From the NCBI GenBank assembly GCA_008973525.1, contig WACJ01000501.1, positions 1,612,001 to 1,676,000 on the forward strand: a DNA stretch of 64,000 nucleotides. The letters are read 5' to 3'. Each line of letters begins with the position of its first letter. Positions within the stretch are counted from its first letter, which is position 1. This DNA is from Stenopsyche tienmushanensis. Lineage: Eukaryota > Arthropoda > Insecta > Trichoptera > Stenopsychidae. Position numbers and translations under genes: made by a program. Of the stretch, positions 16,105 through 52,225 are shown in pieces. The notes below the pieces were generated by a model. That model had not been told where the DNA came from. It was given only the letters and a program-made list of their open reading frames with translations, and did no database searches.

Positions 16105-19100
16105 TTATCCGCCAACAGTTATGATTTGCGGTTGACTTTCAACGTAACTGCCAGCTTGACTACTGGCATAACTGTCGGCGAAACTGCCGGTTTCACTACC
16201 TGCTAAACTGCCAGCATGGCTACCGGCATAACTACCGGCTTGACTGCCGGCTACATTTTCAGTGTGACTACCGGCAAAACTGCCGGCCTCACTGCCGGTG
16301 AAACTGCCGGCTTGACTGCTAGCAATACTCTCAGCGTGACTGCCTGCTTCACTGCCGGCTTGACTGCCAGCTACACTCTCAGCGTGACTACTGGCATAAC
16401 TGCCGGAGATACTGTCGGCATGACTGCCGGCTACACTTTCAGCGTGACTACCGGCATAACTGCCAGCTTCACTGCCAGCAAAACTGCCGGCTTGACTGCT
16501 AGCTATACTCTCAGCGTGACTGCCGGAGATACCGTCGGTTTGACTGCCAGCTACACTCTCAGCATGACTACTGGCATAACTGCCAGCTTCACTGCCAGCG
16601 AAACTGCCGGCTTGACTGCTAGCTATACTCTCAGCGTGACTGCCGGAGATACTGTCGGCATGACTGCCGGCTAAACTTTCAGCGTGACTACCGGCATAAC
16701 TGCCAGCTTCACTGCCAGCAAAACTGCCGGCATGACTGCTAGCTATACTCTCAGCGTGACTGCCGGAGATACCGTCGGTTTGACTGCCAGCTACACTCTC
16801 AGCGTGACTACTGGCATAACTGCCAGCTTCACTGCCAGCGAAACTGCCGGCTTGACTGCTAGCTATACTCTCAGCGTGACTGCCGGAGATACTGTCGGCA
16901 TGACTGCTAGCTATACTCTCAGCGTGACTGCCGGAGATACTGTCGGCATGACTGCCGGCTACACTTTCAGCGTGACTACCGGCATAACTGCCAGCTTCAC
17001 TGCCAGCAAAACTGCCGGCATGACTGCTAGCTATACTCTCAGCGTGACTGCCGGAGATACCGTCGGTTTGACTGCCAGCTACACTCTCAGCGTGACTACT
17101 GGCATAACTGCCAGCTTCACTGCCAGCGAAACTGCCGGCTTGACTGCTAGCTATACTCTCAGCGTGACTGCCGGAGATACTGTCGGCATGACTGCTAGCT
17201 ATACTCTCAGCGTGACTGCCGGAGATACTGTCGGCATGACTGCCAGCTACACTCTCAGCGTGACTACCGGCATAACTGCCAGCTTCACTGCCAGCAAAAC
17301 TGCCGGCATGACTGCTAGCTATACTCTCAGCGTGACTGCCGGAGATACTGTCGGCATGACTGCCGGCTACACTTTCAGCGTGACTACCGGCATAACTGCC
17401 AGCTTCACTGCCAGCAAAACTGCCGGCATGACTGCTAGCTATACTCTCAGCGTGACTGCCGGAGATACCGTCGGTTTGACTGCCAGCTACACTCTCAGCG
17501 TGACTACTGGCATAACTGCCAGCTTCACTGCCAGTGAAACTGCTGGCTTGACTGCTAGCTATACTCTCAGCGTGACTGCCGGAGATACTGTCGGCATGAC
17601 TGCCGGCTACACTTTCAGCGTGACTACCGGCATAACTGCCAGCTTCACTGCCAGCAAAACTGCCGGCATGACTGCTAGCTATACTCTCAGCGTGACTGCC
17701 GGAGATACCGTCGGTTTGACTGCCAGCTACACTCTCAGCGTGACTACTGGCATAACTGCCAGCTTCACTGCCAGTGAAACTGCCGGCTTGACTGCTAGCT
17801 ATACTCTCAGCGTGACTGCCGGAGATACTGTCGGCATGACTGCTAGCTATACTCTCAGCGTGACTGCCGGAGATACTGTCGGCATGACTGCCGGCTACAC
17901 TCTCAGCGTGACTACCGGCATAACTGCCAGCTTCACTGCCAGCAAAACTGCCGGCATGACTGCTAGCTATACTCTCAGCGTGACTGCCGGAGATACTGTT
18001 GGCATGACTGCCGGCTACACTTTCAGCGTGACTACCGGCATAACTGCCAGCTTCACTGCCAGCAAAACTGCCGGCATGACTGCTAGCTATACTCTCAGCG
18101 TGACTGCCGGAGATACCGTCGGTTTGACTGCCAGCTACACTCTCGGTGTGACTACTGGCATAACTGCCTGCTTGACTGCCGGCGATACTGCCGGCTTGAC
18201 TGCTGGCTACACTTTCAGCATGACTACCGGCATAACTGCCGGAGATACTGTCGGCATGACTGCCGGCTACACTTTCAGCATGACTACCGGCATAACTGCC
18301 GGAGATACTGTCGACATGACTGCCGGCCACACTTTCAGCGTGACTATTGGCAAAACTGCTGGTTTGACTGCCGGCAATACTGCCAGCTTGACTGCCGGCT
18401 ATACTGCCAGCATGACTACCGGCAAAACTGCTGGCTTCACTACCGGCGAGACTGCTGACTATACTGCCAGCATGACTACCGGCATAACTGCTGGCTTCAC
18501 TGCCTACAAGACTGCCGGCTACACTGCCAGCATGACTACCGGCATAACTGCTGGCTTCACTGCCGGCGAGACTGCCGGCTACGCTGCCAGCATGACTACC
18601 GGCATAACTGCTGGCTTCACTGCCGGCGAGACTGCCGGCTACACTGCCAGCATGACTCCCAGCATAACTGCTGGCTTGACTGCCGGTTATACTGCCAACA
18701 TGACTACCAGTATAACTGCCAGCATGACTTCCGGCTTGTGAATAGCTTTGACCATGAGGATTTACAATAACATGCTGAGGCACAGGTTTTACAAGATTCA
18801 GTGGTCTAGGTCTAATATCTTCTCCAGAAATACTTATGGAGATTGAGAATGAATCCGAGAATAATTTTCCGCCATTGTGTTTAGTTGAAATTATGTCATT
18901 AGAATCAGAGATTGAGAGACTATCAAAATCTTCATTTAGAAGATATAACAATCGCAAGAATCGTTTTTTCCAATAAGTTCCTCTGCTTTTATCATACTTT
19001 GTTTTTAATGTTGAAATCCATGGGAAATCACTTATGTCTTCGCTTACGCTGATTTCATCATTGTCATGAAGTAAACCATAATCATCAAAACGATGAAGTA

Positions 19101-20889
19101 ATTTTTTATATTTTCCAGTTAAATACTTGAGTTTTGAAGATCTCTTAACGAGGTTGTCGTATTCTACTGAATTTGATTGAGAAACTGAAAGAGATATGTG
19201 TAAATTATTGTCGTCGTCATTCAATCCATGGAACCATTTGTCGTAATCTGCCCATAAGTCATCCACATCGAAATCATCATCGTCTTCAATTGAGATACTA
19301 AAACTAATTGGTTCATCTTCGAACGATTCTGAAATCGATATGCTTATGCTATTATCAACAGGTTTTCCTCGCTTGTGTTTTCTTATTTTTTTTCCTATTC
19401 CATGTATTTCATTCGATCCAGAGATTGAAATACTTATGCTTAAGTTACCTTTATTTTTCTTCAAAGGCTTACGTCTTCTATGTCCAACTTCTGTTGATTC
19501 TGAAATTGAAATACTTATACTTTCGTGGTTGCCACGCTTAGGTTTATGGATGTGTTTGCCCAATGTCCTTCCGTTACCTAATTCATCTGATTCAGAAACA
19601 GATATACTTAAGCTTATTTTGGGGCGTTTGTGTTTTTTAATGCCTCTCTCCAAGGAAATGGAAATGCTTATGCTTTCGTCGTTTGTGCGTTTTGGATTGC
19701 GTGACTTCCTTCTTCTCGGTCTTTCTTCCGATTCAGAGATGGATATGCTTATACTGATATCATCGCTTATGGATTGTAGTCTACGTGGCTTCTTACGTTT
19801 GACTTCTCGTGAGATTGAAATTGATATACTTACATTCTCGTCTGAATTTCTTCTAGGCTTGTGAATATTTTTATGTATTTTATTTCCTTTTCTTCGGGGT
19901 ATTTCATCCGATCCAGAAATGGAAATACTCAATTCGATTTTACGAGGTTTCTTAGTATTTCGAGGACGACTTTCGGCTGAAGCTGAAATTGAAATGCTGA
20001 TACTTTCATGCCTTGGTTGTCTTCGTGGCTTTCTTCCTCTCCAGGAACCGACTTCATCAGAACGTGATCCAGAGATTTCGACACTTATGCTTATATTTTG
20101 ATTGCGATGAGGTTTTCTTCTAATACTGCGCGATTCGAAAGATGGTGAATCTGAGATAGAAATACTAATATTTCTTTTTTTATTTAATTTTTTGTGCGGT
20201 TTGTTCCCTTTGAAGTGTCCTACTTCGTTTGATCGAGATGTTGAAATTGATATGCTGAAATTGATATCTTTAGGCGACTTGCGTGGTTTCACGAGGCTAT
20301 TAACTCCTCTTTCTCTCGAGAGCGATAAAGATATGGAAATTTTTTTATTGTGGGAAGGTGTGTAAGGTTTTCTATTCCATCGATTCTCTCTCGAGTTTGA
20401 TCTGGATACGGAAATGCTGAATTTTATATTATGATCTGGTTTATTGATCGGTGCTAACCCTCTTCTGAGCCATCTTTCATGGGAATTTGAAACCGCAAAA
20501 GAAAAACTACCATGGTTAGGTCGTCCATATCTCCGCGGGCCGTATTCATTAGAATACGATGATTGAAGGATTAAATTGTTTCTAATTTGCCTTCTTCTCA
20601 ATGATTCTGCAGAAGTTGATACGGAAATATGTAAGTTTATATCTTTTCCATTTGAATCTGCAAGATGAATATCAGCGTGTTGATGGTGTTCATCTAAATG
20701 AGGATGATTTCCATCGAAGTGGAGGTGGTGTTCATCGAAGTGGGGATGATGGTCATCTAAGTGGAGGTGATGTTCATTGCTGTGGGGGTAATGATTGCTG
20801 CCTGCGTGTGCTAAATACCATGCTTCATATTCTTCCGCTGAATTGTGCTTAGTAGAATGACACGGCAAAGGTGTGGCTCGTACAAGTTC
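16105..20889 (-). CDS. Gene B giant exon: serine-rich secreted repeat protein (silk/glue-like)
   Basis: The exon starts at 20889 after an AAG acceptor and encodes about 1594 residues. It opens E-L-V-R-A-T-P-L-P-C, the counterpart of G-I-V-R-A-S-P-C in genes A and C. A His-rich segment follows (exon residues about 25-75, H-H-L-H-x-D pattern). About 15 (Ser-X)n blocks such as S-I-S-I-S-I-S ending in E then alternate with Lys/Arg-rich spacers to about residue 540. Next come an acidic D-D-L-W-A-D-Y-D-K-W segment and the conserved Y-W-K-K-R-F-L-R-L-L-Y-L-L-N (about 635). From about 718 to 1585 it is an A-G-S-H-A-E-S/A-G-S-H-A-D-S array with a roughly 40-residue higher-order period. No leader was found between this exon and gene A, so splicing from the leader at 28698 is possible. 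A secreted structural role is inferred. Confidence 0.8.
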   Translation of the reverse strand, partial: ELVRATPLPCHSTKHNSAEEYEAWYLAHAGSNHYPHSNEHHLHLDDHHPHFDEHHLHFDGNHPHLDEHHQHADIHLADSNGKDINLHISVSTSAESLRRRQIRNNLILQSSYSNEYGPRRYGRPNHGSFSFAVSNSHERWLRRGLAPINKPDHNIKFSISVSRSNSRENRWNRKPYTPSHNKKISISLSLSRERGVNSLVKPRKSPKDINFSISISTSRSNEVGHFKGNKPHKKLNKKRNISISISDSPSFESRSIRRKPHRNQNISISVEISGSRSDEVGSWRGRKPRRQPRHESISISISASAESRPRNTKKPRKIELSISISGSDEIPRRKGNKIHKNIHKPRRNSDENVSISISISREVKRKKPRRLQSISDDISISISISESEERPRRRKSRNPKRTNDESISISISLERGIKKHKRPKISLSISVSESDELGNGRTLGKHIHKPKRGNHESISISISESTEVGHRRRKPLKKNKGNLSISISISGSNEIHGIGKKIRKHKRGKPVDNSISISISESFEDEPISFSISIEDDDDFDVDDLWADYDKWFHGLNDDDNNLHISLSVSQSNSVEYDNLVKRSSKLKYLTGKYKKLLHRFDDYGLLHDNDEISVSEDISDFPWISTLKTKYDKSRGTYWKKRFLRLLYLLNEDFDSLSISDSNDIISTKHNGGKLFSDSFSISISISGEDIRPRPLNLVKPVPQHVIVNPHGQSYSQAGSHAGSYTGSHVGSITGSQASSYAGSHAGSVAGSLAGSEASSYAGSHAGSVAGSLAGSEASSYAGSHAGSVAGSLVGSEASSYAGSHAGSIVSSLAGSEASSFAGSHAGSIAGSQAGSIAGSQTSSFANSHAESVAGSHVDSISGSYAGSHAESVAGSHADSISGSYAGSHAESVASSQAGSIAGSQAGSYASSHTESVAGSQTDGISGSHAESIASSHAGSFAGSEAGSYAGSHAESVAGSHANSISGSHAESIASSHAGSFAGSEAGSYAGSHAESVAGSHADSISGSHAESIASSHADSISGSHAESIASSQAGSFTGSEAGSYASSHAESVAGSQTDGISGSHAESIASSHAGSFAGSEAGSYAGSHAESVAGSHADSISGSHAESIASSQASSFTGSEAGSYASSHAESVAGSQTDGISGSHAESIASSHAGSFAGSEAGSYAGSHAESVAGSHADSISGSHAESIASSHAGSFAGSEAGSYAGSHAESVAGSHADSISGSHAESIASSHADSISGSHAESIASSQAGSFAGSEAGSYASSHAESVAGSQTDGISGSHAESIASSHAGSFAGSEAGSYAGSHAESVAGSHADSISGSHAESIASSHADSISGSHAESIASSQAGSFAGSEAGSYASSHAESVAGSQTDGISGSHAESIASSHAGSFAGSEAGSYAGSHAESLAGSHADSISGSHAESIASSQAGSFAGSEAGSYASSHAESVAGSQTDGISGSHAESIASSQAGSFAGSEAGSYAGSHAESVAGSHADSISGSYASSHAESVAGSQAGSEAGSHAESIASSQAGSFTGSEAGSFAGSHTENVAGSQAGSYAGSHAGSLAGSETGSFADSYASSQAGSYVESQPQIITVGG
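16130..18735 (-). repeat. AGSHAES-type coding tandem array
   Basis: The DNA is built from 12- to 18-base sub-units that code for A-G-S-H, A-E-S-V, A-D-S-I-S-G-S and similar. They assemble into a near-identical block of about 120 bases (40 codons) repeated many times between 16440 and 18140. Both ends are more divergent, which is the usual pattern when unequal exchange homogenises the centre. The opposite strand stays open for most of the array because stop codons cannot arise from these units. Confidence 0.9.
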
Positions 20890-22057
20890 CTTGAAATATT
20901 ATAATTGCGATAAAAATATCTTTTGACGTTTAAATGCTATTTAAAGAATGTCACAAGCAGGGAAGATGGAAGACAAAATCAGCTGGAAGTTAGAAGAAAC
21001 CTGACAGGGCGATGAGCTCAAATTTTATGACAAATTACGTATTTATTATTCATTTCAAATATAACATCGAAAACAATCGATAGAGCTGAACGACACTATG
21101 ACGAGATACTACTTGAAACTACTTCTGAGTCAGGAATAAAATATAATAATAAAAGATATTTTGAAAATGAGGCTCTTCAGTTAATATGGCTCAGTTTTTT
21201 CTATACTAGATGATTCAATGACATATTCGATACCGACTTCGGATCTGGATGAAAAGTCGAGAATTTAATGGAAAATTCAATAAAACATATTTCAATGACT
21301 GAGAGAGATAATTTTTATGAATGAGATTTTAATATAATTTTATTAAAAATTAATTTTATTTAATTTTATTTAATTTTAAAAAAATTAAAAATTATCGTGT
21401 TAATACTGTAACAGGATAATTTTAAAAATATTATCCTTTCTTATTTTGTATTGTATTACTTAACTTAACAAATACTGAGCACACCAGTCTTGGTTGATGT
21501 ATGAACATACCAGTCTTGTTTTTATTGTATTTTACTCGTAATGTTATGTATGTTCATTGTTGGTGAGCCATATCAATAAAATAAAATAAAAAGCTGATTT
21601 TTCTGGTCAGATTTGAAAAGAACTGTCGATTTTGTTGCACAAGGAAATTATAAAAATTCATATCCGAGTATGGTTTTCATGAATATGGAAGAAAGAACGG
21701 ACATACTAAAAATAATTCACTTTTTTTATAACAAGACCATATCATTACAAAGATGTGTAAGTTTTGAAAGGATTCAATTCGATTTAAGAAAAAAACATTT
21801 ATCAATGCCAGCATCGCACTGATATAAAACTAAAAGAATATCTTTACAAAAAATGGACAGACAATTACAGTAGTTTCTCCAAAGTTTCATTGATATATAC
21901 GCAAAAACGGGGAATATATTCTAAGAAAAAATATTCTGGATGGATAAATATTATATATATATTTAAAGATTAAAATATTTACATTTTAAAAGATAATTTT
22001 AGCATATAACATTTCCAAAAAATGTTTATAAATGCTTTCTTATTTTTTTCCATCGTA
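20890..22057. other. Gap between gene A and gene B exons
   Basis: About 1.2 kb of AT-rich sequence. I looked on the minus strand for a short ATG exon with a hydrophobic core and a GTGAGT or GTAAGT donor and found none, nor a TATA/TTCAGTC promoter pair like those of genes A and C. It should contain the 3' UTR of gene A. Confidence 0.55.
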
Positions 22058-25000
22058 CTAAAAATTATTATCCCAAGTGTCATAATTATTCCATGCGTTG
22101 TTATTGCCCCAAGCATTGCTATAAGAATTGCTCTGACTCCAAGACTGGCTCTCGTTATCGTTTTCGTTCCCATCGGCGGCACTAGAGCTACTCGCAGAAC
22201 TAGCGGCACTTGAACCTGACAGACTTCCAAAATTATGTCTACCAGTGAATTCGCTACCGGAAGAGCTGCTACTGCTACTAGAACTCGAACTAGAAGATGA
22301 ACTTCCACTACTGGCTGCGGCGCTGCTAGCACTTGCTGCACTTGCGCTCGCAGCACTAGCGCTTGCGGCGCTCGCACTGGAGGCGCTTGCGGCACTTCCA
22401 CTGTTTCCAAAACGTTTTCTACCAGTGATTCCACTACCGGAAGAGCTGCTACTGCTACTGGAACTCGAACTAGAAGATGAACTTCCACTACTGGCTGCGG
22501 AGCTACTGGCACTTGCTGCACTCGCGGCAGCAGCACTCGCGCCAGCGGCACTCGCGCTAGCGGCGCTCGCGCTTGCTGCACTCGCACCAGCGGCACCTGC
22601 GCCAGCGGCACTCGCGCTAGCGGCACTCGAGCTTGCTGCACTCGCACCAGCGGCACTCGCACCAGCGGCGCTCGCGCTAGCGGCACTTGCGCTAGCAGCG
22701 CTCGCGCTAGCGGCACTCGCGCTAGCGGCACTCGCGCTAGCGGCACTCGCGCTAGCGGCACTCGCGCTAGCGGCACTCGCGCTTGCTGCACTCGCACTAG
22801 CGGCACTCGCTCCAGCGGCACTTGCACCAGCGGCACTCGCGCCAGCGGCACTCGCGCCAGCGGCACTCGCGCCAGCGGCACTCGCGCCAGCGGCACTTGC
22901 GCTAGCGGCGCTTGCGCTAGCGGCATTCCCACTGCTTCCCGAACGCTTTCTACCCGAGCGTTCACTACCCGAAGAGCTAGCACTGCTACTGGAACTTGTA
23001 CTAGAAGATGAACTTCCATTACTGGCTGCGCTTGCGGAACTTGCCGCACTTGCCGCGCTTGCGGCGCTTGCCGTACTCGCGCTTGCTGCACTTGCGCTTG
23101 CTGCGCTTGCGGAACTTGCCGCACTTGCCGCGCTTGCGGCGCTTGCCATGCTTGCACTTTCCGCACTTGCACTTGCCGTACTCGAGCTCGCAGCACTTGC
23201 GCTACTCGAAGAGCTAGAGCTGCTACTCGAATCCGATAAGCTTTCTGAAATATTTTCACTTGAGGGTTCACTCTCAGAGTTTATACTCGTGGGCATCATC
23301 GTCATGAAAATTTCTTCTGTTTCAGGACTATTTTCAATAATAGGATCACTAACAGCATTGATTGGCATAATTTCTAAATCTTTCCCAGAACTTTCATCAT
23401 TAACTGCATCAACAGGGATTCCGGTACTTCCACCTGTTTCAGGAATACTTTCATCGATAGGCGCACTTTCAATAATAGGATCACTTACAGCATCAATAGG
23501 CATAATTTCTAATTCAGGTTTACTTTCAATTATATCATTATTGACTGTATCAATAGGGACGATGCCTATATTGTTTCCGGTACTCTCATCCGTTTCAGGA
23601 ATACTTTCAACGATAGGTGCACTTTCAGAAATTGGATCAACGAGAGCAATCCTTTTTTGAATTTCGGAATTTTCAACCGTTTCAGGAATAATTTCAACAA
23701 TGGGATCTACCGCGGACACCGAGCTAACTATCGAGACTGCAGCGCTGGCAGTATTAGCAGAATCAGGAATGACTTCGTTGGCCTTTTGATTTGAATCAGG
23801 CTTTGGAACAGTACTATAAATTTTATGAGATTCTCCGGTGGGTTCGCAGTAAGTGGTCACAATGGTAATCGAACCGTCGGGCTGGGTTATAGAATCGGTC
23901 TTCGCCGATGACGAGACTGAATCTGGGCATGATTTAACTTTTTTCTTGGGTTTTTCATTTTTGAGATCTTCGAAAGATCGACTTATTGAAATAGAAAGTG
24001 AACTAGATTCCGGTGCGAGCTTGATTTTTTTATTGAGTCTCGGTCGCCGCGTGCTCTCATAAGATGCGCTGATAGATATAGAAATAGATCGAGGGCTAGC
24101 TTTAGACGGTCTCTTTCGAAGGTTTTCGAACGATGTGCTAAAGGAGTAATAATCAGAATCCGAATAAAATAGAGGAGCGTGACATCCACAGATGCCTTCC
24201 CAGCCGTAATATCCGTGATGGCATTTCTTATGCCCGGGGATGTATTCTAGGCTATCCGAGTAATCATATGAATCGCTTTCGCTGCCTTCGTTTAGGAGAT
24301 ACAGCAACCTCAGAAATCGTGTCTTCCAGTACGATCCTCTGTCTTTGACTTTATTTCCCTTAGTTATTCTCCATGAATTATATTTATTCCAATATTCATC
24401 GCTATCGCTGTTGCTTAAACTGATACTAAATGATGCAAAAACGCCTCTTTTTTTAGATATAGGTTTCTTATGACGATTTCGGTATCTTTCTTCGTTCGAG
24501 TACGATGTCGAAAATGAATAGCTTATGCGTCTAGGGTGACGTGGGTGGTAATTTTTCCCATAGTATCTCATTTCCAGGCTACTCTTGTGAGATACTGAGG
24601 TACTATGACTGTAATTGAAGCGGCGTCCGGGACGTTTTTGATGCTTATATTTGTTTTTTCTGGCAATGTTTAACCTATGGCCGCGCTTCTTATAAGCAGG
24701 CTTGTAAAGCTTTTTTGGTTTTCCATTAGTAAATTCGTGCGATATAGATAAGCTAAGCGAGTGACTCCGAAGCTTAGGTCTAAGCAAATTTACTTTTCCT
24801 ACCTTATTTGGTTTATTCCCAATGAAATGCCCGATTTCGTGCGATATTGAGTGTGAAAAGCTATATGAATGTCTTCCGGGGTGGTGTGCCGCTCCAGCCC
24901 AATGGGGATGTTCGTGCGAGTGGGAATGACTGTGGCTGCGGTCATAGTGCACGTGGTTGTGTTCGTGTGGACCGTGGGCGATAGCCGTGGCTCCGTGCAG

Positions 25001-28751: not shown

Positions 28752-28853
28752 CCTAGTGAAGAAGAACTGTCTCTCCTCCTTTGAACTTGGATGTTGGTGG
28801 CGTTCCAATATCCTTGCAGACGATTCCTTGATGCACCAAGGTTGGACAAAGAC

Positions 28854-28960
28854 TGAACTTCTCTATTACACCTTATATATATTTATAAGAAACAGCAGTG
28901 GTAATGTACACACGTATTAAAGATGTGTACAAAGATTTGATGGATGGCCCATTTTTCGCT
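28854..28960 (-). promoter_or_regulatory. Core promoter and upstream box of gene A
   Basis: Minus-strand TATAAAT starts at 28887 and the initiator TTCAGTC has its A at 28854, 33 bp downstream. The 5' UTR is then about 103 nt. The sequence just after the initiator (CCAACCTTGGTG...CAAGGA) is also conserved in gene C. An upstream box at 28923-28960 reads on the minus strand GGGCCATCCATCAAAT then TTGTACACA; it recurs at gene C (52311-52345) and A' (7124-7160). Shared control in one tissue is the natural reading, though the factor is unknown. Confidence 0.75.
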
Positions 28961-29579
28961 ATGTTTGCTTTATTTGCACATTAATATGTTAAGATACACA
29001 TTACACGTAAAATATTATGTTTTTCCATTGCGGACTAGTATTCTACCTGTGCCCTGTGGACCCTTATTTGCATGCTTTGATTATCATGACGATTTTGAAT
29101 CATCGATGACGACTAGCTGATGAGTTCTAGAACAATTCTAAAAGTAAACAGTCTGTGATTTCAAAAGAACCATTTAGACATGGACCATGGAGACATTTGC
29201 TCAATAAATATAGACAAATTGTGTGGCATAGAGAGATCATTAGCAATGAAAAAACGACGGAGGATCGATTTCAACAACTATTTTTTTTCGAAACGTTTGT
29301 GGAAATTGGGTCCTACTGATTTTCAGTCATTAGAAAAATGTATATTTGGATTATGATTATAATTATTGATAACATATTGCCATAGTTATTTTGTTTTTCG
29401 ACACTTTTGTACGAAAATATCACGAATATAAAATTCTGTGTTATATCGATATGAGGAATATCTATCAAAAGTGTGGCGTAGCGATATTTAGACGATGAAC
29501 TACTTTTTCTATCTATTTATGAGTATTCTAAAAAAACAAAAAAACATCCTAAAAATCGCAACGAACATGACTAGAAACT

Positions 29580-30000
29580 GAGGTAAGCCTGAAAACGGAG
29601 ATGGGATCAGTCCAGCGAGGGAAGATGGACCCATCGACTTATCCCGGTCATAAGTCGGAGAAGGGCTCGGGAACACGGTGAAATAACCTACCTTGCTCAC
29701 TGGGCATGGATGCTTCGGTGCGTACCTGAAGCGGATTGGCAAAGAACCATCCGTAACGTGCCACCACTGCCAAGCGGAGGTCGACGACATAGAGCACACC
29801 ATCATTGGTTGTGAGGATTGGGCACCCCAGAGAAAACATCTGAAACAAGCACTTGGGGTAGCCGAGCTCAACGTTGACAACATGACCAACAGCAAGAAGA
29901 ATTGCGACCTTTGGCGAGACTACGTAGAAGAGATTTTGAGCGCCAAAGTGGGCAGTGAAAGAGAGAGACGCAGAGCGCAACAGCTTCTCCAACACTAGAA
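29580..30000 (+). mobile_element. R1-clade LINE ORF2 C-terminus fragment
   Basis: The plus-strand frame 29693-29998 has L-T-G-H-G-C-F-G-A-Y-L, then the zinc knuckle C-H-H-C...D-D-I-E-H-T-I-I-G-C, then a basic tail E-R-E-R-R-R-A-Q. This is the standard C-terminus of an R1-clade ORF2. It belongs to a different family from the LINE at 10275. The sequence upstream is too degraded to read far. Confidence 0.8.
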
Positions 30001-30109
30001 TAGGGCCAAATATAATAAAAGGCCAGACTACCTGTCCTCCTGAAGCAATGTGGAAAACAATACCAAGGGACCAAAAAAGGACAAGGGAGGTGGTTTAGTG
30101 GGTACAATC

Positions 30110-30850
30110 ATACACTACCCGCGAAGGGTGTCTTGGCTTGTAAGAGCACATCCGTGGAATACCGTGGGTGCAAAGATTCCCCTCCCACAGGAAAAAAATG
30201 GACCTTTTTTGGGGAATCAAAGAAATTGGTAGAAATGTACTCAATGTGATCTTTGATGGGAGGGATATTTGCTTCGTACCAGGGAGCTCCAAACACTCGT
30301 CGTATAGCGATGCTCTATACTGTTTTTTAATTTGCGATTGTCGATCTGCTGGTATCCTCAGACTGGAGAGACGTAGGTCATGATGGGACGTATAAGGGAT
30401 TTGTATAAGAGCAATTTGTTGTTGTTGTTGTAGTATGCAAGGAGCATGTTGTTGTTGCTCCGCGAGCTTTTTTGATGACATTGTCAATGTGCGGAGCCCA
30501 GGTGAGTCGTGAATCGAAAATTGCTCCAAGATATTTGGTCTGTTTGACCCACGGGATGGTTCCTGATGGAAGGGTGAGAGGAATTTGAAGGGATTTTTTC
30601 TTCTTTGATAATCTCATAGCGAACAGCACCCCCGCGCTCTTTTTGGCATTTATCGTAATTCTTCACCTAGAGTTCCAGACGCTTAGTAAGTCTAATTGAG
30701 ATTGAAAGCGCCTGCAAATTAAGTTTATCTCGGTCGACTGCGACATTATGGCGTTGTCGTCCGCATAGAGAGCGATCGAGTCGGAAGGATGATCGGATTT
30801 GAGTATTTTGGAAAATAACATAGGAGCGAGAATGGATCCGTGCTACACAG
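30110..30850 (-). mobile_element. jockey-like LINE reverse transcriptase relic
   Basis: On the minus strand, pieces in several frames read D-S-I-A-L-Y-A-D-D-N-A-I-M-S-Q-S (about 30790-30750), then K-Y-L-G-A-I-F-D-S-R-L-T-W-A-P-H-I-D (about 30535-30480), then the C-terminal region. It is the same family as 9485-10260, where the matching Y-T-D-D and K-Y-L-G-V-I-F-D blocks occur. A CAA/GTT trinucleotide run lies at about 30418-30430. Confidence 0.8.
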
Positions 30851-30853
30851 CGC

Positions 30854-33532: not shown

Positions 33533-35470
33533 TCATTCTACTGAATAAGAATGTTTTTTATTTTTTATTTGAGAAGACGTTACTATACAGTCTTCCACTG
33601 ATTGTGATGCAAATATATTTAAAGTAGACATGATTTCCTTAGAGGACACAGATATATTTTCTCTCTTCTTGTTTTTTAGTTTGTTTCTTCTATGGTTGAT
33701 TTCTTTAGAGGATGACAAAGAATTGGACCAAGAATAACTTTTTTGTTCCTTGGTTTCTTTGTTTTTTTGTGACTTTATTTCTTTACAGATTGATATTAAA
33801 AAGGACGTAGATTTAATTTTTCCATTCTTGAATTTCAGTTTACTTTTTTGTAGCTTGATTTCTTCAGACACTTATAAAGTATAGGGCAAAGAATTCTTTT
33901 TTTTGGCTTTCGGGGTTTAATTTATTTTTTCTTGGTAATGAAGAGGATATTGGAATATTTTTATTATTATCGGTCAAAATAATACAGGAAAAAATCATTA
34001 TGTTTTGACTTTGATACGGAAATGGGCAACAATAATTTTGTACTTTCAACAGAGACATTTTTGTTCGTTCGTTTCGGCAAACTTGCGATTTCTTTGGAAA
34101 GGGGAAACCAAACCAATGTTATTTTGCTTTCACGTATGCTCATGGGATAAACTTGATTTAGAAATTACATAGTTACTGTAGCGTGGGCGATATATCATCC
34201 CCGCATAGTAGCGGCATCTTCCATTTCTCTTCAGGTGCAATGTGCTATTTTAGCAGCGCCACCTCTTGTGGCCCTGCGGAGCCATTGCACCTGCTTACCG
34301 ACCGATCGCTTCTTGCGCGTGCATCGTTACCGGCTGGGTAGTGACGCGCAGGAAGCGGGAGTCGCGAGAGTCGTCCGTTGGCCTTGGCTGCGGGAGGTCG
34401 TCCCTCCTGCAGCCAGACCTCTCTCTCTCTACCTGTGCTGGGGAATAAATAGTTATCCTGTGAAGAGAGTCTTTCTGTTCAACGCCCTTCGTATTCCCAT
34501 CCATTCGTCCAGTACATCACAGCCCGATAGCAGAACGGACCCGTGCAGTAGCGCGGCCATCCCGACACGCACGTGGAGCACGTGGAGGCGGGGAGCCGCC
34601 CGGGGACTCTGCCCCGAGAGCGCCCCCGCCTCAAACGTTACATTATTACGTTACATACAATTAGAATTTTCATATTTACCATAATAATTTCTTCGCCTTT
34701 GATCAAAAAACTCTTTTGACGTTGACAAGGAAACGGCCAACTTAATTTCAGTTTCTTCTGAAAATGAAAACCAACCCAATATTTTATATCTCAACAACAA
34801 TATGGTCATGTGATAAACTTGATTTAGAAATTTCATATTTACCATAATGATTTCTTCGTCTATGAGAAAAAACTCCTTTGACATAGATATGGAAACAGCC
34901 AAGTTAATTTTTGTACCTCTATCGACTCGATCTTCTATTTCTTAATGCGTTATCATGAGATAAACTCGATATATAATGTTTATATTTTCTATAATATTTT
35001 CCTCGTCTTCTAGGAAAAGATTCATTTGAATCTGATATGGAAATATCCAAGTTGGTTAGTTCGTTGCAATAAAGTTACAGTTTTGAATGTTAATGTTTCA
35101 AGTGCGTCTTTTTGGTCCACGAACAGATCTCCGCCTCATATCATCACCGAGTATCAAAAAGGTAAATAAATGATATATTTGATAGTATAATATTTTGATT
35201 GTTTTTTTTTATTTTTTTAGTCCTCCTTTTAGAAGTCGCATAGACAAGCTAGACCGCCGAAGAAGATAAAGATCCGTAGTTTTTCCAGATGTGGTGTTTG
35301 TCGCTTATAGACAATGAGATCAACATCGCGACTACCGTTATGGAATTGCTTCGCATCCGAGTGACTGTCATGTGCGATTTCCGTAACCGAAAACGCAGCA
35401 AACGCCGTATCGCCGAAGATAACGCAGCGTTCAAGAAGTCAACCAAAATCCCTATTATGAAACATTTATT
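33533..35470 (-). pseudogene. Gene G: decayed serine-rich paralogue
   Basis: Family-style pieces appear in order down the minus strand. At 35330-35250 there is L-I-S-L-S-I-S-D; at 35055-34985 L-D-I-S-I-S-D-S-N-E-S then R-R-R-G-K-Y-Y-R-K-Y-K. At 34902-34660 L-A-V-S-I-S-M-S-K-E-F-F and L-A-V-S-L-S-T-S-K-E-F-F are each followed by remains of a Tyr/Lys spacer. At 33871-33533 there are Lys-rich text and several S-K-E-I blocks. Stops and frame shifts lie between them, and an LTR-like insertion interrupts the gene at 34177-34649. The original repeat unit seems to have been about 40 residues. A leader exon candidate lies upstream at 36420-36470. Confidence 0.65.
34177..34649. mobile_element. Solo-LTR-like insertion in gene G
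   Basis: A GC-rich block starting TGTAGCG interrupts a repeat of pseudogene G. The host pentamer GTTAC lies on both sides (34172-34176 and 34650-34654), consistent with a 5-bp target duplication. It has a CT-rich run and GGGAATAAATAG, a likely polyadenylation signal. Related copies are at about 37070-37460 and 53330-53640. The exact right end is uncertain because the usual CA terminus falls a few bases earlier (34642). Confidence 0.6.
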
Positions 35471-37460: not shown

Positions 37461-37590
37461 ATAGTGTGTAAAAAGATAAATATTTTTTCGAAAAACATTT
37501 TATTTTTTAAATAATTACATACATGTTTAGAAACTATTTGTCATTTAAAATATTATATAATTGAGGATTTATTATTTTTCTGCCAGGAAA

Positions 37591-39662: not shown

Positions 39663-40685
39663 CTGAAAGTATTTTTTAAACAATTGATTAATTACATAAT
39701 ATATTTGAAATTGTTATATTTTATTTTTCGTATGCCATATGGTTTAAATATATATAAAGATACATTTTGAGTCTTGCGATGTAAGTAGTAAATATCTAGT
39801 TACAAGAAAATATAAAAATATAGCTTAAAGGTGACTTTAAATTTCTCTTTGAATTATGTACAGGGTCTTTCAATAGGGACACTGAAAATTTGTTAGGGTA
39901 TAGTGGGCAATATTTTGAAACAACATCAGTCAAATTCATTATGAATTATTTAATAGTGTATTGCAAATTATCATGAAAGGTTATAGTTTTTTGTTTGAGT
40001 AATTTAGAAGTTGAAATACCTCATTCGTTTGCACATTTTATGTGACTTTGAAAGCTCAGACTTATTTTTCTTTAAGCCAATTGCATAAAATAATGATTTA
40101 TTTAGATCGAAAATACATTGCAAAATACACAACAGTTATTTTGTGCAATTACGACCACAGATTTAAAAGTGAAATTTTGGGTATTTCTTCAAAATGCTAA
40201 AAAAAAAACTATTTTGATAACTCTGACATTTAGCATATAGGGACTGTGTGTGAAACGTAGTAAAACACACCCCTAAACAAACAAAAAAGTCGATCCATAT
40301 GCAAAATAGCTAATTAATGTTTATATTAAGTTGAGCTTTAGTTAAATTTTTAAACGAATTTTTGTCTGGTACCCCTAATATTTCTTGGTATTGGCGTAAA
40401 GTACTTACATATTACCATATTCGAAAATATTTCGTCCGAAGTTATTCCGTCCCGTTCTCTGATTCAAATGCTTGAAAGGCAAGGATTTTTTCATTTTAAT
40501 ATTAGGGCTATCGAAAAGTATTCGCGTATTTTGAGATTTTATCTTTGAGCTTAGTTTGTATCCGAACACTGACTATTGTTAAATATCATTTTTGTGAACC
40601 GGATTTTTGAAACAAATATGTTTAACTTCCTCTTGCAGTGATCGTCGATCGTTTCTCCAATCGGTCTATAGAGAAAATAATTAAT
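39663..40685. other. Interval upstream of gene E, no leader found
   Basis: A first exon for gene E should lie here or further away, and must end in phase 1. One GTAAGT donor exists on the minus strand at about 40404-40409, but the frame before it (starting M-K-K-S-L-P-F) is not a signal peptide. A stretch at 40080-40170 resembles 15065-15165. Nothing else is supported. Confidence 0.4.
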
Positions 40686-42305: not shown

Positions 42306-42716
42306 CTTGAAATATATAAAGGTGATGTAAATGCCATCGTCTTTTGTACTTCATTTTAAATATTAAATTATAAAATAAACTTGTCTGTGATCTTGTTTTC
42401 GATGTTAGTTTATCTTTGTATTCCTCACAATCATGTAAGTTTCGCAATCGTTTGCCAAATAATTCATTATATAGATACAGTGACCATATATCTTCTTCTT
42501 CATAAGGAACACTCCTTATTTGAGAGGCTCTGAATTTATTTCTCCAAAAACATCTATCGTATTTTATTTCTTTTTTCATTTCATCATTTAATAAAACCAA
42601 ATAAGATTTGTTTAGTATTCTGATAAAGTTTAACAATTCTTTGACACGAGCCTTCACAAAAAAAGGTAAATTCAGAATAGTTCTATTCGCATATGCTTTC
42701 TTATTTTTGTTCCTTA
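42256..42716 (-). other. Open frame of unclear status between genes C and D
   Basis: About 150 codons are open, without an ATG at the beginning. They include L-P-F-F-V-K-A-R-V-K-E-L-L-N, K-Y-D-R-C-F-W-R-N-K-F-R and Y-L-Y-N-E-L-F-G-K-R-L-R. C-F-W-R-N-K-F-R recalls the family segment Y-W-K-x-R-F-L-R. A pyrimidine-rich tract ending in GTGAAG could be an acceptor at 42656, and ATT/GTGAGG near 42429 a donor. The base composition is less repetitive than the neighbours. It may be an extra exon of gene D, a relic of another paralogue, or chance. Confidence 0.3.
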
Positions 42717-42997
42717 TTTAAAAGAAATACATATATGGTCCCTGTATGCATTCAAGTGTATGTTATAATATGTTGATGTCATGTAAATGTAGGGTTGGTG
42801 TTTGCTTTGGAATGAAATCAAATCAAACTAAATCTTTGTGTTGAAATTTTTATTTGTTTATATTTTTCAAATTTTGACAAAGCAATTTACAATATTTACA
42901 GGAAATTTTCAAATATAAAAAACCGTATTTTTTCAATAAATCGTGATTTTCAACATTTAAAACTGCTTAATCTCTAATGGAGTCCATTTTTTTTGTC

Positions 42998-45900: not shown

Positions 45901-48900
45901 TGTGTTTCTTAGTGTATGGCTTGAATGGTTTCTTTCCTTTCCAAGGTCCGTTTTCAAAAGATTTTGAAATCGAGATGGACAAACTAAAACTCTTGAACTT
46001 TTTGCATCCGGGTTTGTGGTAGTGATTGTATGGTTTGTTGTTTTTCCAGTGGGTTATTTCGTTGGAGATCGATCTTGAAAGGGAGAAGCTGAAGCTTGGT
46101 TTTCCGAGATGACGACCCTTCTTGTGAATGTGCTTATGCGGCTTTTTTTGTCCTGGATAGTAAATGTTCTTCTTGGAATATGGTTTGAACGGTTTCTTGC
46201 CCTTCCAAGGTCCATTCTCAATGGATTTTGAAATCGAGATGGACAGACTGAAGCTATTGAATTTCTTGCATCCGGGTTTGTGGTAGTGATTGTATGGTTT
46301 GTTATTCTTCCAGTGGGTTATTTCGTTGGAGATCGACCTTGAAAGTGAGAAGCTGAAGCTCGGTTTCCCGAGATAGCTGCCTTTCTTATGAATGAGCTTA
46401 TATGGTTTTTTACCGCCATTATAAATGTGTTTCTTATAGTATGGTTTTGAAGATTTTCCACCTTTAACATTTTCAAAAGAGCTTGAAATGGAGATTGAAA
46501 TACTTGTACTGCCATTTTTTCCATATTTGGGTTTGAGCCCACTTTCATTTGATTGTGAAATTGAAATGGACAAACTGAAACTATTAAATTTTTTACATCC
46601 AGGTTTGTGGTAGTGATTGTATGGCTTGTTGTTTTTCCAGTGAGTTATTTCATTAGAGATTGATCTTGAGAGAGAAAAACTGAAGCTTGGCTTTCCATAG
46701 GGACTTCCTTTTTTATGAATGTGCTTATAAGGTTTTTTACCACCGTTGTAGATCTTTTTCTTGTAGTATGGTTTTCCGCCATTCACAGATTCGATTGAAT
46801 TCGAAATGGAGATTGAAATACTGGTACTACCATTCTTCTTACTGAGTTGATTCGGATATTTTTTACTTTCGTTGGACTGGGAAATCGAAATAGAGATGCT
46901 GTTACTAACATTCCTTTTATATTTGGGTTTGAGGCCACTTTCATTTGATTGTGAAATTGAAATGGACAAACTGAAACTATTAAAATTCTTACACCCAGGT
47001 TTGTGGTAGTGATTGTATGGCTTGTTGTTCTTCCAGTGAGTTATTTCATTAGAGATTGATCTTGAGAGAGAGAAACTGAAGCTTGGCTTTCCATAGGGAC
47101 TTCCTTTTTTATGAATATGCTTATAAGGCTTTTTACCACCTTTGTAGATCTTTTTCTTGTAGTATGGTTTTTTACCGCCACTGTAGATATTTTTTTTGTA
47201 GTATGGTTTTCCGCCTTTCACAGATTCAAATGAATTCGAAATGGAGATTGAAATACTGGTACTACCATTCTTCTTACTGAGTTGATTCGGATATTTTTTA
47301 CTTTCGTTGGATTGGGAAATCGAAATAGAGATGCTATTACTAACATTCCTTTTATATTTGGGTTTGAGGCCACTTTCATTTGATTGTGAAATTGAAATGG
47401 ACAAACTGAAACTATTAAATTTTTTACATCCAGGTTTGTGGTAGTGATTGTATGGCTTCTTTTTTTTCCAGTGAGTTATTTCATTAGAGATTGATCTTGA
47501 AAGAGAGAAGCTGAAACTTGGTTTTCCGAGATGACGACCTTTCTTATGAATGTGCTTATGGGGCTTTTTTTGTCCTGGATAGTAAATGTTCTTCTTGGAA
47601 TATGGTTTGAACGGTTTCTTGCCCTTCCAAGGTCCATTCTCAATGGATTTTGAAATCGAGATGGACAGACTGAAGCTATTGAATTTCTTGCATCCGGGTT
47701 TATGGTAGTGATTGTATGGCTTATTATTCTTCCAGTGAGTTATTTCATTAGAGATTGATCTTGAAAGAGAAAAGCTGAAGCTTGATTTTCCGAGATAGCT
47801 GCCTTTCTTGTGAATGCGCTTATATGGTTTTTTACCGCCATTATAAATGTGTTTCTTATAGTATGGTTTTGAAGGTTTTCCACCCTTAACATTTTCAAAA
47901 GAACTTGAAATAGAGATTGAAATACTTGTACTGCCATTTTTTCCATATTTGGGTTTGAGCCCACTTTCATTTGATTGTGAAATTGAAATGGACAAACTGA
48001 AACTATTAAATTTTTTACATCCAGGTTTGTGGTAGTGATTGTATGGCTTGTTGTTTTTCCAGTGAGTTATTTCATTAGAGATTGATCTTGAGAGAGAGAA
48101 ACTGAAGCTTGGCTTTCCATAGGGACTTCCTTTTTTATGAATGTGCTTATAAGGTTTTTTACCACCGTTGTAGATCTTTTTCTTGTAGTATGGTTTTTTA
48201 CCGCCACTGTAGATATTTTTCTTGTAGTATGGTTTTCCGCCTTTCACAGATTCGATTGAATTCGAAATAGAGATTGAAATACTTGTACTACCATTCTTCT
48301 TATTGAGTTGATTCGGATATTTTTTACTTTCGTTGGACTGCGATATCGAAATAGAGATGCTATTACTAATATTCCTTTTATAATTTGGTTTGAGGCCACT
48401 TTCATTTGATTGTGAAATTGAAATGGACAAACTAAAGCTATTAAATTTTTTACATCCAGGTTTGTGGTAGTGATTGTATGGCTTGCTATTTTTCCAGTGA
48501 GTTATTTCATTAGAGATTGATCTTGAGAGAGAGAAACTGAAGCTTGGCTTTCCATAGAGACTTCCTTTCTTATGAATGTGCTTATAAGGTTTTTTATCAC
48601 CATTATAAATGTGTTTCTTATAGTATGGTTTTGAAGGTTTTCCACCTTTAACATTTTCAATAGAACTTGAAATGGAGATTGAAATACTTGTACTGCCATT
48701 TTTTCCATATTTGGGTTTCGACCAACTTTCATTTGATTGTGAAATCGAGATGGACAGGCTGAAGCTTTGGAATTGTGGGCCTCTACGTTTATGATAGTGG
48801 TTGTATGGCTTGTTGTTCTTCCAGTGAGTTATTTCATTGGAAATCGATCTTGAGAGAGAGAAACTAAAGCTTGGCTTTCCATAGGGACTTCCTTTCTTGT

Positions 48901-51900
48901 GAATGTGCTTATAAGGTTTTTTACCACCGTTGTAGATCTTTTTCTTGTAGTATGGTTTTTTATCGCCACTGTAGATATTTTTCTTGTAGTATGGTTTTCC
49001 GCCTTTCACAGATTCGATTGAATTCGAAATGGAGATTGAAATACTGGTACTACCATTCTTCTTACTGAGTTGATTCGGATATTTTTTACTTTCGTTGGAC
49101 TGGGAAATCGAAATAGAGATGCTGTTACTAACATTCCTTTTATATTTGGGTTTGAGCCCACTTTCATTTGATTGTGAAATTGAAATGGACAAACTGAAGC
49201 TATTAAAATTCTTACACCCAGGTTTGTGGTAGTGATTGTATGGCTTGTTGTTTTTCCAGTGAGTTATTTCATTGGAGATTGATACTGAAAGAGAGAAGCT
49301 GAAGCTTGGTTTCCCGAGATGGCTGCCTTTCTTATGAATGCGCTTGTATGGCTTTTTCTGTCCGGGGTAGTAAACATGTTTTTTTGTATATGGTTTGAAT
49401 GTTTTTTTACCCTTGTAAGGTCTCTTGTAGTATGGTCTATTTGTGGAGTATCCTTTCCATGGGTATTTTTCTCCAGATTGCGAGATGGATATGGACAGAC
49501 TAAAACTGTGGAGGTTAGGACCTCTGCGCTTGTGATAGTGATTATAAGGTCTATTATTCTTCCAGTGCGTTATTTCATTAGATATTGATCTCGAAATGGA
49601 GAAACTAAAACTCGAATCTCCTGAATTGATTCCTCGTCTGCGAATTCTTCTGTGTGAATATTTAGGGCCGATATGAATGCCCACTTTGTCGTTTTCTATC
49701 GATATCGAAATTGAAAGGCTGAAACTGTTGAAATTAGGTCTTCGGCCTTTGTGATAGTGATTGTATGGTTTGTTGTTCTTCCAGTGTGTTATTTCATTGG
49801 AGATTGACTGAGAGATTGAGAAGCTGAAACTGTCCAATCCCAGGTGACTGCCCTTCTTGTGAATTCGCTTATATGGCTTTCCATTTTTATAGGCGTGTTT
49901 CTTGTAATATGGTTTAATTGTTTTTTCGATCGATGTGGAGATGGAAATCTTCGCGGGTGCTCGTTCGTTAGAATTGGATATCGAGATGGACAAACTATAA
50001 CTACTGTACCCTGGGCCTCTTGGTTTGTGAATATGTTTGTATGGCTTCTTGTTACGGTAGTGTGTTATCTCGTTTGACACTGATTCAGAGTACGAAATGC
50101 TGTAGCTGGCTTGTCCAGGGTATTTACCTCGTTTGTGGATGTATTTGTGTGGTTTCTTTATTCTTTCCACAGATTCTGAAATCGATACTGATAAGCTGAT
50201 GCTATCGTAGTCGGGATGTTTTCGGATTCTTTTATGAGGATTCTTTCCTTTCAAAAATAATTCGCTGGACACTGAAGTGGAAAAGGAGAAGCTTTCGATA
50301 TCATCTTCATTCAGTTGAACTGCGTTCACTTCGTTGGAGTTATAAGCGATAGCAGTGGCACCGTATGGGGTTGCTATACTTCCTGCGCCTCCTTCTCCAT
50401 CGCTGGACGTTCCGATGATGGTGACTCCGTCATCATCTTCGATGCCCGCTATGGTTTGGGATCCACTCAAAGTGCTATCGCTTCCGGAAAATGTTCCATG
50501 TCCGTCAGAATCGTGAGATTCTGCAAATCCATGGGCATTCTCGCCACTCGTGAAAGAATAAGAAGTTCCATCGCTGTCTGAGCCGGTACTCGAGTAACTA
50601 GTTTTACCATCTGGTCCTGTGCTCGAGGACCACGATTGGGAGAATCCTCCTCCGTTACCACAGGAAGAAGAGCTAGAGGAGCTACTCGAAAAGCTCGATG
50701 AGCTGCTTGAGCCCCATCCTGGGGGAAAATTGCATGGCGATGCTCGTACGATCCCCTTAAAATACATAAAGTCTTTGTAAGTGTAATATGTATATGGATT
50801 TGCTATGATTTGAGAAGTGTATAATACGAATAGGGACTTTAATTCCAGTATCATGATATTTTGATATGTAATGACGTGTATAATTCCAAAGAGGTGTATG
50901 GGTCATCAGTAAAAAATATTTTTCATGTGATTCGAGAGCCAATGCTCTTATATTCTTTTAAATTTTAGCTTGTACAACAAAAGCAATTTTCAACAAATAG
51001 ATCACACAACACAAAACATTTTTTAAATTTGTAGGTTGAGATTTTTTTATAAATAAATATTTAAATGCAAAAGCTAAAAGAGCTCATGGACATTTTTTTC
51101 AATTATTAAATCAAAGTAAATCGTTGATTTATCCTTCGATTATTTTTTTGTAAATCCATTTAAAATTAAAAATCGCGTAAATCGAGGGATGGGTGGGTAA
51201 TTATTTTTATGCGTCGAAATAAAAATTTATTGTATTTTCACAGTGTACCAACAGATGGCAGCGCATGTCGCTACACTATTTTCATTGTATGAAAACACTC
51301 AAGGCTTTGCTAAGTATGGGCGAGTGATAGCACAGAATCCCGCACATTTTTAGCATTTTTTTATTCCACGCGGCTTTCACAAAAATCCTCGTAACCTGTT
51401 TTTCTATTAATGCTAATTTAGTAAAATAAAAAGTGTCATAAAGCATTTAGTATAATGCAAGTATTTAAAAATATTTGATTGCATATTACACAGCCAAATA
51501 ATAAAAATAAAATTAACAAAATATTTATAGTTACTAAACTTCTGTGAATTGGGGTTAGTCATAGGTAAGGTTTCATATATTCATCCAAAAATCAAACAAA
51601 CCCCTCTTGAGTACATTTTTTTTCGCGGACCCTCTTTTGTACATTTTGGGCCGGGTTTTAATGCAAAATAAATAAATTAACGAATTATGCATATAAACGC
51701 ATAATTCGTTAATTAATTTTTTTATTAAAGTCGTAAAATACTTATTGATTTGATTTTTTAAAAAGCATATTTTTGGTTTAATTTCCAAGTATTATTATGA
51801 TTTAAAAAAATCCCAACCACTCACGATGTGAATAAATTCGAACAATTGATATTATAAAAAAAATTCAAACTTCAGATGCGAAATAATAAATATTAGCATG

Positions 51901-52113
51901 GTTTATTTGTGAAGATTGAAATTGTGTCGAGGTGTTAAACCGTCTGTGGGGCGCATTTCAGGAGTTATTTTTTAGCTGCCACGTCACACAAAAAGTTAGC
52001 CCATAAGCGCGTATATTTTGCCATAATTTCATATTAGTTTTTCAGTAATTGCTACTCACATTTAGGGAAAGCAAGAGTAGCAAAACGCCTATCTTCCAAG
52101 GGCTAAACGCCAT
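42998..52113 (-). CDS. Gene C: giant secreted (Ser-X)n / Lys-Tyr-His repeat protein, two exons
   Basis: Exon 1 is 52113-52060 and exon 2 is 50755-42998, phase 0, intron about 1.3 kb. The product is about 2603 residues. Residues 1-18 (MAFSPWKIGVLLLLLSLN) form a clear signal peptide, then G-I-V-R-A-S-P-C. The first 200 residues match gene A (poly-Ser, D-G-T-S-Y-S, G-E-N-A-H-G-F, G-A-T-A-I-A). Some 18 modules follow, alternating S-F-S-F-S-L-S-R-S-I-S-N-E with T-H-W-K-N-N-K-P-Y-N-H-Y-H-K, often P-G-C-K-K-F-N, then S-I-S-I-S-Q-S-N-E-S and K-P-Y-K-H-I-H-K-K-G. At about 2111 is Y-W-K-K-R-F-L-R-L-L, at about 2155 C-H-H-G-Y-Y-P-W. Poly-Ser, then S-E-A-S-A-W-S-S repeats (about 2315-2550), (G-S-H-S)n and a Gly-Lys tail close it. 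S-x-E motifs suggest heavy phosphorylation. A phosphoserine silk or wet adhesive is inferred. Confidence 0.87.
43200..43830 (-). repeat. Ser-Glu-Ala-Trp coding repeats in gene C
   Basis: About nine copies of a unit coding for S-E-A-S-A-W-S-S-A-S-S-N/S-A plus a short acidic D-D-N-D-E-N-N linker. The spacing is about 69-78 bases. Trp recurs at fixed intervals, as in the tail of gene E. Confidence 0.85.
45450..49850 (-). repeat. Large coding repeats of gene C
   Basis: Units of roughly 200-450 bases are highly similar to each other. Two or three types alternate: a short one with P-G-C-K-K-F-N and a longer one that also carries K-P-Y-Y-K-K-N/K-I-Y-x-G-G-K-K-P-Y-K-H-I-H-K-K-G-S. Blocks at 46750-47060, 47100-47460, 48100-48480 and 48880-49260 are nearly interchangeable, so copy number probably varies between individuals and the assembly may have collapsed or expanded here. 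Confidence 0.85.
50756..52059 (-). other. Intron of gene C
   Basis: Bounded by the donor GTGAGT (52059-52054) and an acceptor TTTTAAG ending at 50756. AT-rich, with a palindromic ACGAATTATGC/GCATAATTCGT hairpin at about 51680-51710. No coding region is supported and it shares no obvious sequence with the gene A intron. Confidence 0.7.
52060..52113 (-). other. Leader (signal peptide) exon of gene C
   Basis: Eighteen codons from the ATG at 52113 to the donor GTGAGT in phase 0. It matches the gene A leader in length, in M-A at the start, in the W-K pair at positions 6-7 and in the Gly at position 9, while the hydrophobic core has diverged to five Leu in a row. That pattern indicates common descent rather than a recent copy. 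Confidence 0.88.
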
Positions 52114-52225
52114 CCTGGACGCGTCAACAAGGACCTTCACTGGTTCAGATCCCAAATTAAACTGTAAGGTTCAAGCCCTCCAAATCCACTGATAAATCCT
52201 TGGTCTACCAAGGTTGGGCGATGAC

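Follow-up and report, generated by a model that had tools for sequence, protein, structure and literature searches.

We analyzed a 64,000-nt stretch of DNA (the window; positions 1612001-1676000 of contig C501) from Stenopsyche tienmushanensis and found that it lies in a gene cluster that has been duplicated and encodes giant serine-repeat proteins, which are likely silk proteins. Judging from the sequence, there is about an even chance that this is a larval-silk cluster in which each block carries a promoter and a signal-peptide exon that would be spliced to alternative giant last exons. Just short of even we place a fuller version, a cassette locus in which one silk promoter and signal exon would be shared by two or three giant last exons that are mutually exclusive, encoding a basic (Ser-X)n fibre protein and an acidic Asp/His-rich or Cys-rich protein; the cassette would have been duplicated, and selection would have kept a signal exon after its own first giant exon had died. 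The exons, their phases and copy numbers, the duplications, and the selection on exons A and E are matters of observation. The cluster genes were also checked in the 281 kb around the window, and genome scans covered 451 Mb in 549 contigs. All coordinates are in window numbering unless a contig is named, and those that are negative or greater than 64,000 are outside the window.

An earlier, sequence-only reading of the window had named genes A, A′ (hereafter B2), B, C, D, E/F and G. All of these were found, all on the minus strand, and their gene models were checked by translation; the cluster itself is larger than that reading stated, with A2, C2 and D2 lying outside the window. From 5′ to 3′ on the minus strand the order is C2, D2, F, C, D, E, G, B, A, B2 (broken), A2, as follows (aa, amino acids).

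81626-73341, minus strand: C2 giant exon, 2761 aa, outside the window
72644-69309, minus strand: D2 giant exon, 1111 aa, outside the window
64541-62170, minus strand: F giant exon, a paralogue of E, 789 aa, its first 541 bases outside the window
50755-42998, minus strand: C exon 2, 2585 aa, open frame
42305-40686, minus strand: D giant exon, 539 aa, rich in Asp, Asn, His and Tyr, acceptor tttcaag, phase 0
39662-37591, minus strand: E giant exon, 689 aa, acidic, acceptor tttcag, phase 1
33533-35074, minus strand: G, decayed, seen as short serine-repeat reading frames only
25384-22058, minus strand: B exon 2, 1108 aa, with an Ala/Ser tail
20889-16105, minus strand: A giant exon, 1594 aa, opening ELVRATP, acceptor tttcaag, phase 0
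1588-291, minus strand: B2 exon 2 remnant, with three frame-shifting indels and its 3′ part gone
-2274 to -9494, minus strand: A2 giant exon, 2406 aa, outside the window

A search of the genome with the pattern of the signal exon (exon 1) gave four places without a mismatch, all in the cluster; the remaining 13 of 17 matches had three mismatches each, and a reversed-pattern control gave 4 matches. Exon 1 is 54 bp long in B, B2, C and C2, and each copy lies 5′ of one C- or B-type giant exon. The copies within the window, with their promoters and 5′ untranslated regions (5′ UTRs), are listed below.

52380-52114, minus strand: C promoter and 5′ UTR, TATAAA 146 nt before the ATG, resembling those of B, B2 and C2 in a four-unit alignment
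52113-52060, minus strand: C exon 1, signal peptide MAFSPWKIGVLLLLLSLN, starting exactly at 52113, donor gtgagt, phase 0
28990-28752, minus strand: B promoter and 5′ UTR, TATAAA 136 nt before the ATG
28751-28698, minus strand: B exon 1, signal peptide MAALSWKTGALFLLVALT, donor gtgagt, phase 0
7193-6945, minus strand: B2 promoter and 5′ UTR, from the four-unit alignment
6944-6891, minus strand: B2 exon 1, 54 of 54 bases the same as in B exon 1

By blastn, the C side (52197-52367) matched the B side (28825-28980) at 71%. A profile of the four promoter units recovered those four, which were its training set, and its next match in the 281 kb had an E-value of 0.14. When exons 1 and 2 of B and of C were joined, each product had a hydrophobic core, and its -3/-1 site, IVRA/SP, is likely cut. 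A short signal exon followed by a long repetitive exon 2 is thus the layout of B, C and C2; as found, it is not that of A, D and E. The earlier claim that the proteins are secreted is supported for B and C by their clear signal exons; that no conserved signal exon was found for A, D and E had gone unremarked in that reading.

Three signal-exon scans were made of A, D and E, and none found a signal exon of these genes that is conserved between copies. At loose thresholds the minus strand of the 281 kb yielded 253 candidate rows (210 ATGs), of which none fell in the intervals upstream of D (693 bp) and D2 (696 bp). Seven rows belonged to A and four to A2, with none in common; the non-coding 1.17 kb before A holds three rows, and no candidate for A has a gtaag or gtgag donor. 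The same scan recovered the candidate exons of S914 and of a fibroin-like giant gene, both on the same contig and described below. The acceptors of A, A2, D and D2 have the same phase as those of B and C, and a B/C-type exon 1 joined to A completes the signal peptide as LVRA/TP; the junction with D does so less clearly. A 126-bp block upstream of both E (40569-40444) and F (67317-67192) is 82.5% conserved. It was considered as an extra exon and dropped, its differences appearing by eye, without a count, to be mostly amino-acid changing.

Duplication has been followed by decay in one copy and by constraint in others. Over an alignment of 1475 columns, B2 and B match at 88.9%; exon 2 of B2 has lost the 3′ part and carries indels of 23, 37 and 2 nt. 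Identity between B and B2 is 100% in exon 1 (54/54), 95% in the promoter and 5′ UTR and 87% in the intron. Since exon 2 of B2 is broken while its exon 1 and promoter are kept, and since A2, next downstream, has 2406 open codons, it may be for A2 that the B2 block has retained its signal exon; A2's own candidate exon, given below, is a live alternative. Purifying selection acts on the N-terminal part of A/A2 (ratio of non-synonymous to synonymous substitution, omega, 0.29; Fisher p 2.8e-9; 614 aligned N-terminal codons), on E/F (omega 0.19, p 6e-18) and on the N-terminus of C/C2 (omega 0.05, p 1e-5, first 330 codons). It is quite unlikely, in our estimate, that A, D and E are relics, left promoterless by duplication and open only because the duplications are recent: B2 shows that decay occurs in the cluster and constraint on D/D2 is not significant, but the selection on A/A2 and E/F and the long open frames in both copies speak against this. 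Still less probable is an assembly artefact in which the second blocks are misplaced alleles (haplotigs). Near-identical stretches exist, such as the first 330 residues of C and C2 (99.4% identical); however, all blocks lie in one 3.09-Mb contig, synonymous divergence (dS) is 0.135 in A/A2 and 0.20 in E/F, and the segments that can be aligned between copies are broken up, with spacing that differs from one copy to the other. The D/D2 exon seems to change fast within conserved ends, and the D2 locus at 69312-72689 has a big Cys-Asn-Ser-Asp repeat stretch that is not in D (129 Cys in D2, 12 in D).

Several observations weigh against a shared signal exon. A2 has a candidate exon of its own, not shared with A, at -1065/-1053 (MLLINIILTHSNTVFSS, donor gtaagt, phase 0); the candidate-exon regions of A and A2 are not similar in DNA sequence, with a local score of 23 where shuffles average 24.6, and signal-exon scans can overlook odd exons. 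D is without the xVRA/ cleavage site found in A, B and C, its constraint relative to D2 is not significant (omega 0.57, p 0.15, 148 C-terminal codons), and the first 30 codons of D and D2 have diverged (omega 1.78, 13 differences). E and F do not fit the shared-exon model, their acceptors being in phase 1, which the phase-0 donor of exon 1 cannot serve; a second GT 4 nt downstream of that donor would suit their phase, yet it is present in every gtgagt. The peak of B/B2 identity at exon 1 is modest: of 2813 windows of 54 nt, 99 are perfect, and 34 of these start in the intron, compared with 65 in the promoter or exon 1. For C/C2 the corresponding gradient is 96% in exon 1, 90% in the promoter and 5′ UTR, 88% upstream and 83% in the intron. 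Alternative splicing is also described as relatively rare in Limnephilus lunatus (PMC11092239), which lowers the prior.

To an arrangement of separate, ordinary two-exon genes of the pseudofibroin/cadhesin type, in which the signal exons of A, D and E are non-conserved or were missed by the scans, we give appreciably less than an even chance. The published pseudofibroin and cadhesin genes mostly have two exons, the first tiny (PMC9432349, PMC11092239), and a separate candidate exon is present for S914 as well as for the fibroin-like giant, that of the giant having been missed by the first scan; the gtaagt donor of the unshared A2 candidate points the same way. However, separate genes leave the empty intervals immediately before D and D2 to be accounted for, as well as the failure of A and A2 to share a candidate despite 81% identity in their acceptor-proximal 507 columns, and the occurrence of the exon-1 signature four times, always before a B- or C-type exon.

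Under the shared-exon reading, the blocks would run, 5′ to 3′ on the minus strand, exon 1-C2-D2-F; exon 1-C-D-E; exon 1-B-A; and exon 1-(broken B2)-A2. Exon 1 would be joined to C or to D, and likewise to B or to A, and every messenger RNA (mRNA) would end at its own poly(A) site. An AATAAA or ATTAAA lies at most 600 nt from the stop codon in all nine open giant exons, which is weak evidence in AT-rich DNA. The computed isoelectric points (pI) of C and D are 10.0 and 4.7, respectively, so that if exon 1 joins either and each mRNA has its own poly(A) site, one silk promoter would give proteins of opposite charge. For lacewing venom, another insect secretion, alternative splicing has been reported, and the classes scored there include alternative last exons (PMC12758981). 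In the literature searched (listings, passages and selected sections), no paper was found to describe, for silk, giant alternative last exons that share one signal exon.

The proteins themselves are built of (Ser-X)n blocks, as the sequence-only reading had stated. Runs of (SX) repeated at least four times were counted in each exon and compared with 300 composition shuffles. C has 56 (shuffle mean 1.8, maximum 7), A 16 (1.5, 6), B 10 (1.3, 5), D 2 (0.0, 1) and, with the Ser-His tail counted in, E 8 (0.2, 2) and F 9 (0.3, 3). The blocks are far above chance, and a Glu closes the run or follows it by at most four residues in 52/56 runs of C, 15/16 of A and 7/10 of B; in A2, 30 of 54 runs have one. 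Blocks of the (SX)nE type are thus present in C, C2, A and A2, with fewer in B. Between the runs of C, spacers (n = 53, 6-79 residues) average 25 residues with a net charge of +5.5, 2.0 His and 2.5 Tyr. Serine makes up 16-26% of A, B, C, E and F, 14% of D2 and 7% of D.

Other shared modules proved less general than had been proposed. Within the window the GIVRASPC opening is confined to B, C and B2, A opening instead with ELVRATP and D with GIGRPSA. The W-[KR]-x-R-F-[LM] motif is present in A, B, C, D, A2, C2 and D2 and absent from E and F; its positions in the window are as follows.

44464-44423, minus strand: WKKRFLRLL motif in C
40976-40935, minus strand: variant of the motif in D
24328-24287, minus strand: WKKRFLRLL motif in B
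18972-18931, minus strand: WKKRFLRLL motif in A

B has an N-terminal domain of 143 residues that is 65% identical to that of C over 144 columns, and a second common segment (62 columns, 55%) includes YWKxRFLRLL and a Cys stretch; the YWKxRFLRLL part is also found in A, and D has a variant.

The comparison with caddisfly heavy-chain fibroin (H-fibroin) that had been drawn for the window proved apt. An L-fibroin (PF05849) match was found at C232:155988 (E 1.1e-9). In moths and caddisflies, the fibH neighbourhood is reported to be between prospero and 2-oxoacid dehydrogenase (PMC11906653). Here prospero is on contig C525 (768.7-783.4 kb), and 2-oxoacid dehydrogenase matches fall on three contigs, C525 (1128.5-1129.1 kb) among them. 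That contig was sampled 35 times around and between the two genes (18 samples of 1.1 kb, 17 of 0.4 kb), and 2 of the 35, one at 890 kb and the other 15 kb away at 905 kb, contained SASGSQSAE with GPYGGSLGPYGD repeats, of the GPRGYSASGSQSAEGGWGYGPYGGSLGPYGD type. The repeat between the two genes is thus Gly-Pro-rich with (SX)4E, which is the described make-up of H-fibroins in retreat-making caddisflies (PMC12576367). The cluster genes, on C501, are not at this place. Their contig also carries the fibroin-like giant (C501:1499431-1518781, plus strand; window -112569 to -93219), which ends 93 kb left of the window on the strand opposite to the cluster. It has a candidate 39-bp exon 1 (MRSYFLWCLLLIT; the one of three candidates with a gtaagt donor), an intron of 403 bp and 6303 aa, with 168 runs of at least four (SX), 167 of them with Glu, GHPGFPG repeats and a Cys-rich C-terminus. 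It fits the H-fibroin layout of a 39-45 bp exon 1, one intron and an exon 2 with (SX)nE and Gly-Pro-rich repeats, although it is not at the canonical place; its first 319 residues gave no solved-structure match at E <= 1. The idea that it is H-fibroin itself was dropped, since in the C525 samples the published place is taken by a repeat of H-fibroin type.

Many kinds of secretion contain serine proteins of low complexity, and the products of the cluster could instead be secreted into eggshell, cuticle, an accessory-gland glue or an adult secretion. We regard this as unlikely, since (SX)nE blocks are the characteristic repeat of caddisfly H-fibroin (PMC12576367) and a fibroin-like gene lies on the contig of the cluster.

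The sequence-only reading had also proposed a new silk or adhesive gene family. The kind of gene is not wholly new: two-exon genes, some of them in clusters, that combine a tiny signal exon with a long exon of repeats have been described in caddisflies as pseudofibroins (PMC9432349) and cadhesins (PMC11092239). Compared by description, the cluster genes are the same kind of gene and, like them, encode Ser-rich repetitive proteins in a cluster of paralogues. What sets them apart from these descriptions is the long (SX)nE-plus-basic-spacer proteins and the finding of no conserved signal exon for A and D. The pseudofibroins Pfib1-4 and SGA28 of Plectrocnemia conspersa (PMC9432349) likewise have a Ser-rich repetitive second exon, two adjacent duplicates and Cys in several members, but have Ser-Ala/Ser-Gly motifs in place of long (Ser-X)nE blocks with basic Lys/Tyr/His spacers; A and D here, in contrast to them, seem to be without a conserved exon 1. 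The L. lunatus cadhesins Caz1-12, for which an adhesive coat has been proposed (PMC11092239), are alike in their clustering, mostly two exons, Ser or Thr richness and fibH-like gene structure, and differ in their composition, the short exon 1 that most of them have for themselves, and the little alternative splicing reported. Trichopteran H-fibroin (PMC12576367, PMC4929942, PMC11241164) shares the (SX)nE blocks beside other repeats and the tiny signal exon with a giant exon; its exon 1 is reported to be 39-45 bp, compared with 54 bp in the cluster, and the H-fibroin-type repeat here sits at its expected place on C525, whereas the cluster is on C501. The sericin-like genes Srcl1-3 of Neomicropteryx (PMC11906653) are also large, Ser-rich and in one cluster, with products found in silk and two of the three having two exons; (SX)nE with basic spacers is not among the features described in the sections consulted.

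Searches for homologs were negative. Among 5.8 billion proteins, no match at E <= 1e-3 was found for residues 1-520 of B, for the B/C N-terminal alignment or for E, and this absence is weak evidence of novelty, as the database may be without caddisflies. Viral and phage collections, searched with E only, gave no match. A Pfam scan of five proteins (E <= 1) gave two matches, one of the tail of A to phage gp5 trimerisation (E 3.6e-12) and one of C to DUF6718, below the cut-off; both were rejected as repeat artefacts, as was a solved-structure match to the Ala/Ser tail of B (E 0.005). A structure prediction for the B/C N-terminal domain was useless (mean predicted local distance difference test score, pLDDT, 36). 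Rfam and tRNA scans of the window found nothing.

A further gene lies beyond the cluster.

-23252 to -25993, minus strand: S914, a two-exon Ser/Gly/Ala-rich gene of 914 aa, candidate exon 1 at -21819

S914 has 4 runs of at least four (SX) (shuffle mean 1.7), and is a possible relative of SGA28/Caz12; its repeated domains bear a loose resemblance to the N-terminal domain of B and C. Broken reverse-transcriptase elements occur at 7785-11666 and 29509-30842 (RVT_1 in 2 of 6 frames scanned), with copies across the window. At 60541-61491 on the plus strand, a DDE_Tnp_1_7 match below the cut-off, in the first frame only (E 0.0056), may mark a decayed transposase, and an Asn-rich tandem-repeat reading frame, with units of about 36-78 bp, is present at 57645-58109 on the minus strand. 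On the mitochondrial contig (C509:1-3600), an array with a spacing of about 400 bp, in which tRNA-Tyr(ata) was called eight times, is probably a control-region repeat. The mitochondrial gene order, I-Q-M ... W-C-Y, is ancestral for insects and does not speak against a caddisfly.

The silk of caddisflies adheres and keeps its hold under water, and little is known of the proteins in it other than fibroins. The repeat motif phosphorylated in H-fibroin, where a phosphoserine-calcium chemistry has been reported (PMC4929942), sits here in a separate, expanding cluster together with strongly basic spacers, and the products would for this reason be natural glue partners. The cluster would be expressed in the silk gland, and, by analogy with the published work on caddisfly H-fibroin, its (Ser-X)n blocks may be phosphorylated and form calcium-bridged β-domains. 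The phosphorylated blocks and the basic Lys/Tyr/His spacers could pair to make a glue or a coat on the fibre, and acidic D and E could pair by charge with basic C. If the shared signal exon is true, splicing and polyadenylation could determine in what ratio silk proteins of opposite charge are made.

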